Below are positions 24,090 through 28,145 of a stretch of DNA of 64,000 nt, piece after piece. The stretch lies in assembly GCF_000016665.1 (NCBI RefSeq), contig NC_009523.1, forward strand, positions 1,178,001 to 1,242,000, written 5' to 3'. Position 1 is the first letter of the stretch, and each line of letters starts with the position of its first letter. The notes under the pieces were generated by a model that was given only the letters and a program-made list of their open reading frames with translations, did no database searches and was not told the DNA's origin. A program made the translations under genes and the position numbers. This DNA comes from Roseiflexus sp. RS-1. Lineage in GTDB: Bacteria > Chloroflexota > Chloroflexia > Chloroflexales > Roseiflexaceae.

Positions 24090-25478
24090 GGGTTGAAAGG
24101 GGGGGGATTTAGGGCGATTTCAGGCATTGGGACGGGTCATCGATATGCATGGTTACGCTGTCACCTATTTTGGGCAAGGGCTCCGGGCGCAACCACAAGC
24201 GGACCCAACAACGCCCTTGCGCCAGCAACCAGCGCAGGCGCCGACCTGCCCCCCGCCGGAGCAGGCTGATCACCCGCTGCGCCGTGCCGCTCCAGCGACG
24301 GCGCAGCGGTGCGCCCGTCGTCGGCGGCGCCCGCCGCAAGCGACCGGGCGGAACCCCCTGCTGTTCTGCATCTTCGATCCGCGTGCCGACGGCCACCGTC
24401 CACCGCGTGACCGTCGCCACCACCAGATACTGCCAGGCCACCGCATCCGGGTCCGTCACCTGACCGCGTTGCCAGTCCCAGCCCATCGACGTACTTTGGC
24501 GGAAGCCCGCCTCGTCCCAACTGCGCAGGGCATACCACGCGGCATCCACCCGCGCGGCTGAACGCTCGACGAGCGGCGCCCACGGTTCCGCATGGCCGGC
24601 GCCCCACGCCACCGCCAGCGTGCCCGCAATCCGCTTGGGTGCGTGCGTGAAGGCGACCCCCGCGCCCACCCATCCATGCCCCGGTCCGGGCGCCAGGCGC
24701 AGCACCGACTGGCGCACCTGACCGGTCGGCGCGAAGGTCGACGTGGGACGCACCCGCATGATGGGATGGACCTGCTGCGACCGGATGGCGTGCCACCGCC
24801 GGGGGCTCCACAACCCCTGATCCGCCAGCGTGAGGACCTCCTGGTCGAGCGGCAGCGCGCTGCGGGCCCAGCGCAGCATCCGCTCCCAGTGCGGTTCCCA
24901 CGCGCCCGGTTGGTTCGCCGGGACGATCACCCAGGCGACCGGCAGGGCAGCGCCCCGATAGAGGACGCTCATGCGCAGCAGAACGACGTCAGCGCGCCGA
25001 TGGGAGGCATCCAGCCCGAGCACCAGCGGTCCGCCGGTCCAGTGCGCGCGAATCCAGCGGAGCAGGTCGGCGCCGCACGCCAGCGGACTGACCACCGGTG
25101 GCGCACCCGCCGCAGGTGGGTCGGCGGTGTTTATGAGATGGGCCGGGGCGGCGATCCAGGCGTCCCAGGCGTCCGCCAGGGTGGCGGCACGGGCGATCCC
25201 GGCAGTGGCGAGCGCTGGCGCCAGCGCGGGACGATTGGCGCTCCCCGCCAAGCGGGCGCCCAAGACCCAGCGGGACAGGGCGCGGCGCCGGTGACGCGAC
25301 AAGCGCGGGAAGAGGGTCTGGATCTGCTGCTGCAGCAACCGTTCCGTGGGCGTGCGGGCCATTCCATCCTCCGTGTCTCGCGATCCTTCCATGATCATGC
25401 TACCGACGGATCGGCCCGTGCGTTCGGTGGAACGGAAACGGTTGACAATCTGCCTGCGAATCCCCCCCCTTTCAACCC
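24090..25478. mobile_element. Insertion sequence with DDE transposase
   Basis: The 1389-bp IS has perfect 20-bp terminal inverted repeats (GGGTTGAAAGGGGGGGGATT at 24090-24109, complement at 25459-25478) and one transposase gene. It sits inside a family III repeat. CCCACA occurs at 24082-24087 and again at 25476-25481, a possible short target repeat, although the second one overlaps the IS end. Confidence 0.85.
24109..25362 (-). CDS. DDE transposase, IS4-like
   Basis: A 417-residue transposase. I start at the ATG at 25362 because GGAGGA precedes it; the frame continues upstream into the flanking repeat. The first catalytic Asp is in LVLGLDASHRRADVVLLRMSV, the second in VLTLADQGLWSPRRW, and the glutamate probably in the RSWDEAGFRQSTSMGWDW region, a spacing fitting IS4-type DDE enzymes. 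The stop codon overlaps the inverted repeat. The frame is intact, so the element may be active. Its base composition is like that of its surroundings. The IS family is assigned from the pattern only. Confidence 0.8.
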   Translation of the reverse strand: MARTPTERLLQQQIQTLFPRLSRHRRRALSRWVLGARLAGSANRPALAPALATAGIARAATLADAWDAWIAAPAHLINTADPPAAGAPPVVSPLACGADLLRWIRAHWTGGPLVLGLDASHRRADVVLLRMSVLYRGAALPVAWVIVPANQPGAWEPHWERMLRWARSALPLDQEVLTLADQGLWSPRRWHAIRSQQVHPIMRVRPTSTFAPTGQVRQSVLRLAPGPGHGWVGAGVAFTHAPKRIAGTLAVAWGAGHAEPWAPLVERSAARVDAAWYALRSWDEAGFRQSTSMGWDWQRGQVTDPDAVAWQYLVVATVTRWTVAVGTRIEDAEQQGVPPGRLRRAPPTTGAPLRRRWSGTAQRVISLLRRGAGRRLRWLLAQGRCWVRLWLRPEPLPKIGDSVTMHIDDPSQCLKSP

Positions 25479-25571
25479 ACAAGGGGAGAAGGGGGTTGGG
25501 GGGATGAGGGGCAAAAGCGCACGGGAATGCAGAAAACCGCTCATCTCTCCCAAGAACTCTACCTTTGAGAA

Positions 25572-25583
25572 CCCGCAATACCC
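25572..25583. repeat. Right target-site duplication of family III copy C
   Basis: CCCGCAATACCC, identical to 23991-24002. Confidence 0.75.
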
Positions 25584-25682: not shown

Positions 25683-26771
25683 ATGAACCTGAGCGATTAC
25701 ACGTTTCAGCCAGACCTGGCGCGCGCCACGACGATTCCGGCGCGCTGGTATATCGATCCGCAGATGCTGACGATCGAGGAAGAGCGTATTTTTGGGCGCA
25801 CCTGGCAACTCGTCGGGCGGACGGAGCACGTTCGTAATCCGGGCGACTACTTTACCTGTTCGGTTATCAACGAGCCGCTGGTCGTCACCCGCGACACCGC
25901 CGGGAAATTGCACGCCTTCTACAACGTCTGCCGCCATCGCGCCGGTTCGGTCGCTGAGGGATGCGGCAATCGCAAGACACTCCAGTGCAGTTACCACGCC
26001 TGGACATACAACCTTGATGGGACGCTGCGCTCGACGCCGGAATTCGAGGGGGTGGAAGATTTTGACCGGGCGGATTATGGTTTGCGCCCCGTGCAGGTGG
26101 ATACGTGGGGTCCGTTCGTCTTTGTGAACCTTGACATGCAGGCGCCGCCGTTGCGCGAGGTGCTTGGCGCTATTCCTGAAGAGACGGCGAATATGCCACT
26201 GGAGCGCATGGGGTTCTACAAGCGGGTGGATTACGAAATTGCCTGCAACTGGAAAGTGTATGTCGATAACTATCTGGAAGGGTATCACATTCCGGTTGCG
26301 CATCCGGGGTTGTTCAAGGAAATCGATTACAAACAGTACCGTGTCGAGACGTTCCGCTACTACTCGAAGCAGCACGCACCGATCCGCGAAAATCCCGATT
26401 CGCTCTACCGGCGGCACCTGGAAGAAGGCGCGCCCGCGCAGGCGCTCTACTACTGGATCTTTCCCAACCTGATGCTCAATATCTATCCGGACAATCTCCA
26501 GATCAACATCATTCTGCCGCTGGGACACGAGCGAACGCTGACGATTTTCGAGTGGTATGTTCTCGATGTTGATCGCCCCGAAGTGGCGGAAGAGTTTCAC
26601 CGCTCGTTCAAGTTCAGCGACGTGGTGCAGAAGGAAGACATCGAGATCTGCGAGGCGGTGCAGAAGCGGCTGCGATCACGCTCCTACAACGTTGGGCGCT
26701 TTTCGGTGCTCCGTGAGAACGGCGTGCACCACTTCCACGGATTGCTCGCCGAATATCTGCAGCGCGCCTGA
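25683..26771 (+). CDS. Rieske non-haem iron oxygenase, large subunit
   Basis: A 362-residue ring-hydroxylating-type oxygenase. The Rieske 2Fe-2S ligands are in VCRHRAGSV and CSYHAWTY (residues 81-107). The mononuclear iron site is NYLEGYHIPVAHPG with two histidines. The size and the ending EYLQRA fit the group that includes glycine betaine, carnitine and choline monooxygenases. No reductase or beta subunit is adjacent. The substrate cannot be fixed from the sequence. A good promoter lies upstream. Its last 39 bases were copied into the tandem duplication that carries the Uma2 genes; the stop directly abuts the convergent Uma2 gene. Confidence 0.9.
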   Translation: MNLSDYTFQPDLARATTIPARWYIDPQMLTIEEERIFGRTWQLVGRTEHVRNPGDYFTCSVINEPLVVTRDTAGKLHAFYNVCRHRAGSVAEGCGNRKTLQCSYHAWTYNLDGTLRSTPEFEGVEDFDRADYGLRPVQVDTWGPFVFVNLDMQAPPLREVLGAIPEETANMPLERMGFYKRVDYEIACNWKVYVDNYLEGYHIPVAHPGLFKEIDYKQYRVETFRYYSKQHAPIRENPDSLYRRHLEEGAPAQALYYWIFPNLMLNIYPDNLQINIILPLGHERTLTIFEWYVLDVDRPEVAEEFHRSFKFSDVVQKEDIEICEAVQKRLRSRSYNVGRFSVLRENGVHHFHGLLAEYLQRA

Positions 26772-27365
26772 TTACCCGAACAGCAGGTCGGTCGCCACGT
26801 TCCAGCCGGGGATGACCTGGCTCGGAATGACCGCCTGCCCGCGATAGACGTGTTCGGCGCGGTACGCCCCGCCGACCAGGGTGAGCAACTCAACCGCGCG
26901 ATGCCCTGGATCGGCGATCCAGTATTCGCGGATTCCGGCGGCGGCGTACAGGTCGCGCTTCTCGCGCCGGTCGTAACTGGCGGTGCCGGGTGAAACCACC
27001 TCCACCACCAGGTCTGGCGGTCCCACGATCCGTTGCGTCGTGATCGTCGCGGCGCCACCGTTCAGAATGACCACAACATCTGGCTGGACGACGGTCACCG
27101 GACTGAGTTCGACATCGAGCGGCGCTGTGAAGACCCGGCCATGCCCTGCGGCTTCGATGAAGACGAAAAAGTGGTGGGCAATGCGCAACGCTGCAGCCTG
27201 ATGTTCCGGGTTCGGGGCAGGCGCCATACGCAGGTCTCCCTCGATCAGTTCATAGCGCTGCCCGTCCTCCGGCAGGCGCTCATAGTCGGCCACCGTCCAC
27301 CGTCCGCCGGGAGGTGGCGGCAGATGTGCAGCCGGTCCTGCCACAGGAAGAATGTCAACCGTCAT
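26772..27365 (-). CDS. Uma2 family nuclease-fold protein, copy 1
   Basis: A 197-residue Uma2 (DUF820) protein with a PD-(D/E)XK-type fold. The family patterns are WTVADYERLPEDGQRYELIEGDL, then VVQPDVVVIL, PDLVVEVVSPGTASYDRREKRDLYAAAGIREYWIAD. Such genes are greatly expanded in cyanobacteria and Chloroflexota; their cellular role is unsettled. I start at the ATG at 27365. It differs from its tandem neighbour mainly in one helix (HQAAALRIAHHFFVFIEAAG). The Rieske gene's stop codon abuts its own stop codon on the other strand. Confidence 0.85.
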   Translation of the reverse strand: MTVDILPVAGPAAHLPPPPGGRWTVADYERLPEDGQRYELIEGDLRMAPAPNPEHQAAALRIAHHFFVFIEAAGHGRVFTAPLDVELSPVTVVQPDVVVILNGGAATITTQRIVGPPDLVVEVVSPGTASYDRREKRDLYAAAGIREYWIADPGHRAVELLTLVGGAYRAEHVYRGQAVIPSQVIPGWNVATDLLFG

Positions 27366-27434
27366 AGACGCCATCCAGTCACAGGGATATGGTCTTTCCA
27401 CGGGTTGCTCGCCGAATATCTGCAACGTGCGTGA

Positions 27435-28028
27435 TTATCCGAACAGCAGGTCGGTCGCCACGTTCCAGCCGGGGATGACCTGGCTCGGAATGACCGCCTG
27501 CCCGCGATAGACGTGTTCGGCGCGGTACGCCCCGCCGACCAGGGTGAGCAACTCAACCGCGCGATGCCCCGGATCGGCGATCCAGTATTCGCGGATTCCG
27601 GCGGCGGCGTACAGGTCGCGCTTCTCGCGCCGGTCGTAACTGGCGGTGCCGGGGGATACCACTTCCACCACCAGGTCTGGCGGTCCCACGATCCGTTGCG
27701 TCGTGATCGTCGCGGCGCCGCCGTTCAGAATGACCACGATATCCGACTGGACGATGGTCACCGGACTGAGTTCGACATCGAGCGGCGCTGTGAAGACCCG
27801 GCCATGCCCTGCTAATTGCACACATTGCATCAGGTGATAGAAGATCAGCCCACTCGCAGTCTGATGTTCCGGATTCGGGGCAGGCGCCATACGCAACTCT
27901 CCCTCGATCAGTTCATAGCGCTGCCCGTCCTCCGGCAGGCGCTCATAGTCGGCCACCGTCCACCGTCCACCGGGGGGTGGCGGTAGATGCGCAACCGGTC
28001 CTGCCACAGGAAGAATATCAACCGTCAT
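27435..28028 (-). CDS. Uma2 family nuclease-fold protein, copy 2
   Basis: A 197-residue tandem paralogue of the gene at 26772-27365. Nearly all residues agree, including the putative catalytic set in SDIVVIL, VVEVVSPGT and RREKRDLY. The divergent block is HQTASGLIFYHLMQCVQLAG, where the two copies share almost nothing in DNA or protein. I start at the ATG at 28028. Because the downstream unit (copy 1) carries the sequence next to the original Rieske gene, which copy is the parent cannot be told. Confidence 0.85.
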   Translation of the reverse strand: MTVDILPVAGPVAHLPPPPGGRWTVADYERLPEDGQRYELIEGELRMAPAPNPEHQTASGLIFYHLMQCVQLAGHGRVFTAPLDVELSPVTIVQSDIVVILNGGAATITTQRIVGPPDLVVEVVSPGTASYDRREKRDLYAAAGIREYWIADPGHRAVELLTLVGGAYRAEHVYRGQAVIPSQVIPGWNVATDLLFG

Positions 28029-28145
28029 AGACGCACATCCGGTCGCATAGGGAAGCTCTGCGACCCTGAATCCACACCATCTGCCACATTGTAGCACACG
28101 AACCTGAAACGGAAGAGGAGCCACTCTCAGGCGGGTAAGGGATTG

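Follow-up and report, generated by a model that had tools for sequence, protein, structure and literature searches.

Why do two adjacent genes that are otherwise nearly identical differ at almost every codon of a single helix? The question arises in the window analysed here, a stretch of 64,000 nucleotides from Roseiflexus sp. RS-1 (positions 1,178,001 to 1,242,000 of the genome). Two Uma2 genes sit there in directly repeated units, 26733-27371 and 27396-28034, which are offset by a constant 663 bp and are about 96% identical outside one 48-bp block. Uma2 (COG4636, DUF820) is a large family for which the literature searched yielded no experimental function. Two accounts of the family (Feder and Bujnicki 2005, PMC551604; Makarova 2009, PMC2701414) describe tandem paralogues and likely solo toxins in paralogue cassettes, and PMC551604 predicts a PD-(D/E)XK nuclease family. 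Cyanobacteria, too, have numerous tandem Uma2 genes. The genome of the window is one contig of 5,801,598 bases (5.80 Mb), in which we found 51 Uma2 genes. The locus comprises the following features.

25683 to 26771, plus strand: gene of a Rieske-type oxygenase, taken from the list of open reading frames and named from its sequence, the end of which is duplicated
26733 to 26771, plus strand: 3' end of the Rieske gene and start of repeat unit 1, 39 bp, following copy A
26772 to 27365, minus strand: Uma2 copy A with a type-A helix, 197 aa from the ATG at 27365 (Pfam Uma2 PF05685, E 1.9e-39)
27150 to 27197, minus strand: block of copy A, AAALRIAHHFFVFIEA, residues 57-72, type A, grouping with A-type genes of other genera
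27396 to 27434, plus strand: scrap copied from the end of the Rieske gene, 39 bp, lying between both Uma2 genes, following copy B and also present in the related genome G001
27435 to 28028, minus strand: Uma2 copy B with a type-B helix, 197 aa (Pfam Uma2, E 1.1e-37), with QSD for QPD at residues 94-96
27813 to 27860, minus strand: block of copy B, TASGLIFYHLMQCVQL, type B, identical in 16/16 residues to G001 and in 14/16 to G062 and G065

The scrap at 27396-27434 is a scar of the tandem duplication and is common to RS-1 and G001, and the tandem arrays of these two genomes align end to end at 90-91%. Just upstream of the Rieske gene, an open reading frame on the minus strand (24109-25578) resembles an IS transposase, as judged by sequence only. 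Across 26775-28028 (minus strand), copy B, a single TAA, an open linker and copy A follow one another in one frame.

By profile, fold and active-site residues, both copies are ordinary Uma2 members and putative nucleases. Their PF05685 profile scores are 135 and 130 bits against a curated cut-off of 27; H55, D96, E122 and K136 are present in every aligned row, copies A and B included; and an AlphaFold2 model (pLDDT 88) matches the structures 6okh, 9y1l, 3ot2 and 1wdj. The modelled structure gives both copies the PD-(D/E)XK fold with the lysine shifted to the following helix. A conserved histidine, H43 of all3650, is proposed in PMC551604 to bind metal or substrate, and we equate it with H55 at the start of the helix. 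Residue 95 of copy B (27744-27746) is serine; in copy A and in the aligned relatives this position is the proline of the PD motif.

The two blocks differ at 29 of 48 bases, affecting nearly every codon, and the coding part outside them differs at 20 positions. The worst other 48-bp stretch holds 6 differences, and random placement of all differences (20,000 trials) never put more than 16 in one stretch. The preliminary description had reported near-identical tandem units with one sharply divergent block coding for a single helix; its coordinates are all correct, and the sharpness holds up, since the neighbouring regions, checked for equal divergence, reach no more than 6/48. The block covers residues 57-72 of a helix predicted at residues 53-71 in the AlphaFold2 model. 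The conserved H55-Q56, in the first turn of the helix, lies outside the block and is common to both copies, and the block edges are nearly unchanged in independent gene pairs from other genomes. That an assembly or sequencing artefact produced the pattern is scarcely credible: tandem repeats are hard to assemble and several metagenome contigs do end in the gene, but the genome of the window is a single contig, and A and B blocks occur independently in several genera, in isolates as well as in metagenome bins.

Relatives with the same gene backbone were gathered from genome collections and sorted by helix type. Type A follows the pattern ..LR.....IE.. (like AAALRIAHHFFVFIEA) and type B the pattern ..GLIF...Q.VQ.. 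(like TASGLIFYHLMQCVQL). Residues 60, 61, 63, 68 and 71 alone separate the types completely, and no column outside the block region tracks type completely, the best reaching 0.34 bit. Both types recur in Roseiflexus, Chloroflexus, Viridilinea and relatives, with the rest of the gene following the species. On the tree of the rest of the gene, helix type changes seven times and a clade of A genes is rejected (AU test, p = 2.9e-5). On the block tree, whose 57 columns and long branches make the inner order unsafe and leave the A|B split clear, type changes once and the split has support of 100/100. Nucleotide identity within A/B pairs is 91-96% in the rest of the gene and 35-42% in the block for Roseiflexus, Chloroflexus and the group of G062, G063 and G065, and 82-86% in the rest for Viridilinea; A blocks of different genera are as a rule closer to each other than A is to B. 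Copies A and B of RS-1 are 96% alike compared with 92-93% to G001, meaning that paralogues are closer than orthologues, as in concerted evolution by gene conversion, here with a protected segment.

A block that differs at nearly every codon would also be expected of a surface helix that simply evolved fast or under relaxed constraint. We consider this account very improbable, given that 70 of 104 close pairs, nearly all of them between-genome orthologues that serve as a control, have no excess in the block; the conservation of the types across genera and the two-type structure also contradict it. The block dimorphism is ancient and is not the product of drift.

The preliminary description had one locus in view; several other Uma2 pairs and subfamilies diverge at this helix too. 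An all-versus-all comparison of 182 distinct fetched Uma2 genes contained 14 within-genome pairs of at least 70% identity, two of which are identical but for one or two residues. Divergence over 17 residues peaks in a window starting at profile columns 34-40, where the helix lies, in 11 of the 12 non-identical pairs; this count comes from an unselected window test, covers several subfamilies and includes pairs that are not all independent, as the RS-1 pair at 849 kb and its G001 counterpart are orthologous. A separate list of 11 pairs, picked because they show the effect, is descriptive only. Three RS-1 pairs that belong to other Uma2 subfamilies (at 1.72, 3.67 and 4.45 Mb) have their patch at the same helix, and the SFHQW subfamily has many helix types. 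The 4.45 Mb pair (L030, G000:C1:4450106-4451307) carries a second patch outside the helix, VIFIRAANAEI versus YVVVLQSRADL, which may lie next to the helix in the fold. Some tandem pairs are alike throughout, the helix included: L139 (G001:C2), L140 (G001:C168), L150 (G005:C249) and L044 (RS-1, 4.28 Mb). From other Chloroflexota classes no close Uma2 pairs were obtained, and outside Chloroflexales there were old pairs only, most of them without a helix patch. One tandem gene from outside Chloroflexales, L223 (G098:C28), has a block 74% identical to that of L240 (G126:C52) and 41% identical to that of its own neighbour, a likeness that hints at mixing of helix types beyond the order.

Different helices also occur at what is otherwise the same locus. 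Chloroflexus islandicus (type A) and G050 (type B) align collinearly for 4.3 kb with 86% identity, the gene reaching 91% and the block 35%; Viridilinea halotolerans (A) and V. mediisalina (B) are alike at 88% over 2.8 kb upstream. RS-1 and G001 are collinear over 5.4 kb at 90%, with the A block at 40% and the B block at 96%; G001 has the whole tandem array as in RS-1 and carries type B twice, its copies being nearly identical throughout. Loci that differ in helix type could have received a transplanted helix or lost one member of an older A/B pair. On the latter account, A and B are ancient paralogues of which the rest has been converted, and single-copy species lost one by tandem collapse, with no transplant at all. 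We regard this as possible but somewhat doubtful; it concerns history and not function, and is compatible with the explanation that we prefer below. RS-1, G065 and G075 do hold both types, and orthologous loci with A or B could be collapsed pairs. Contigs of four other Roseiflexus bins (G002:C217, G003:C39, G004:C21 and G005:C141) end inside the gene, as expected with near-identical copies, which suggests undetected tandem copies in these bins and makes their lack of a type-A copy weak evidence. Loss fits less well with G001, where the same array is present yet both copies are B, and with G065, in which 3.6 kb separates the A gene from the B gene and both flanks of the A locus match those of the single B locus in G062.

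The idea that another paralogue of the same genome had donated the block is unsupported: among the 30 of 51 RS-1 Uma2 genes that were extracted, the best match to block A is 5/16 residues. Clear A-type relatives in other genera reach 10/16. A scan of viral contigs gave no relative, and plasmids hold distant relatives only, below 60% identity. A diversity-generating retroelement is an unlikely source of two conserved, ancient types, as opposed to many random variants. Among the RS-1 differences that were polarized, 8 sites are derived in copy A, 11 in copy B and 1 is unclear; 5 of the 8 sites derived in copy A sit 58-93 bp from the block edge, which hints at a longer imported tract, though the sites are too few for a decision.

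The preliminary description had set drift aside and named block exchange, gene conversion and strong local selection as candidates. Drift is indeed ruled out and all three candidates stand, with the data favouring a combination in which recombination homogenizes everything but the helix and selection separates the helix types. On balance we favour, as rather likely, the explanation that specificity resides in an interchangeable module, the first helix of the Uma2 core, whose types are kept by selection amid gene conversion. Selection on the helix's exposed face would hold the ancient types apart, and the rest of the gene would be homogenized or reshuffled by homologous recombination between near-identical copies, through gene conversion, tandem expansion and collapse, or exchange between cells. 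Centred on the helix, this would mean that it moved between backbones; centred on the backbone, that all but the helix was converted. Selection must separate the types because conversion erases the other differences and, in some pairs, the helix difference as well. The fully identical pairs, the second patch at 4.45 Mb and the old pairs outside Chloroflexales that mostly lack the patch count against this explanation.

What the helix does is suggested by where it varies. The differences tend to lie on the side of the helix away from its hydrophobic moment (p 0.014), so the differing residues are likely exposed. Residues 61 and 71 covary, R with E and L with Q, when independent pairs are taken from the Uma2 tree (median p 0.004, an optimistic value, given that the covariation was noticed before testing). 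Being ten residues apart in a helix, they are approximately 15 Å distant and too far from each other for contact; across the two-fold axis of antiparallel helices they would meet. From the exposed face and this covariation we infer a role in the choice of binding partner: what each copy binds probably depends on the helix, and the partner is most likely another Uma2 subunit. In the specific form that we put forward tentatively, as a good possibility short of an even chance, a one-helix recognition code would set the pairing of Uma2 subunits, with otherwise identical copies kept apart or paired as opposing partners. Pairing would be homotypic (or else between A and B), sparing near-identical neighbours mutual dimer poisoning. 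A fused-chain model through the stop between the in-frame copies folds in both halves; its alignment spanned one half, leaving the interface uninformative.

The same pattern could be selected by DNA contacts, the main rival to a pairing role. The helix would then be a DNA- or target-recognition element, with types swapped as are the target recognition domains of restriction enzymes under diversifying selection on target choice. The predicted nuclease family and the proposed metal- or substrate-binding histidine at the helix start (PMC551604), the known exchange of target domains by recombination in flanking homology (PMC3077401) and the position of the differences on an exposed face all agree with this, and the many helix types of the SFHQW subfamily favour it there. 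We nevertheless rate a target-recognition role as unlikely, given that the core clade keeps just two main types across genera with conserved diagnostic residues and no spectrum, and that a charge pair of R61 and E71 is more natural for a protein-protein contact.

Near-identical Uma2 copies are distinguished by one helix, with residues 60, 61, 63, 68 and 71, and the reason why some genomes keep dozens of Uma2 copies (51 in RS-1) becomes testable through that helix. A one-helix pairing code, if true, would be a first handle on the purpose of Uma2 cassettes. The locus also shows plainly, in bacteria, an ancient dimorphism of one segment that is maintained despite continuing homogenization. The Uma2 accounts PMC551604 and PMC2701414, in their available portions, mention neither an exchangeable helix nor concerted evolution around one, and our search, confined largely to literature outside subscription journals, found no account on Uma2 dimers, gene conversion or segment exchange. 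Related systems are known elsewhere. Recombination exchanges a variable segment that sets specificity between conserved flanks in the specificity genes of restriction-modification systems, also from locus to locus (Furuta 2011, PMC3077401). The Uma2 block, a variable segment between conserved flanks, fits such target-domain exchange, and loss from old pairs gives the same pattern; in Uma2, however, the exchanged unit is a single helix of approximately 16 residues in the core of a putative nuclease, with no known target role. The tandem paralogues TLR1 and TLR6 of mammals (PMC2077338) are homogenized by gene conversion in one part and functionally separate in another, independently in many species, but the distinct part is a large region, whereas in Uma2 it is 48 bp within a homogenized gene. 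mtrA-1 and mtrA-2 of methanogens (PMC4632066) are prokaryotic paralogues with long-lasting conversion that differ in one segment; that segment is an added membrane domain, whereas in Uma2 it is an alternative version of a core helix. Concerted evolution that spares a segment and the exchange of specificity segments are both already known, and what would be new here is their occurrence in Uma2.
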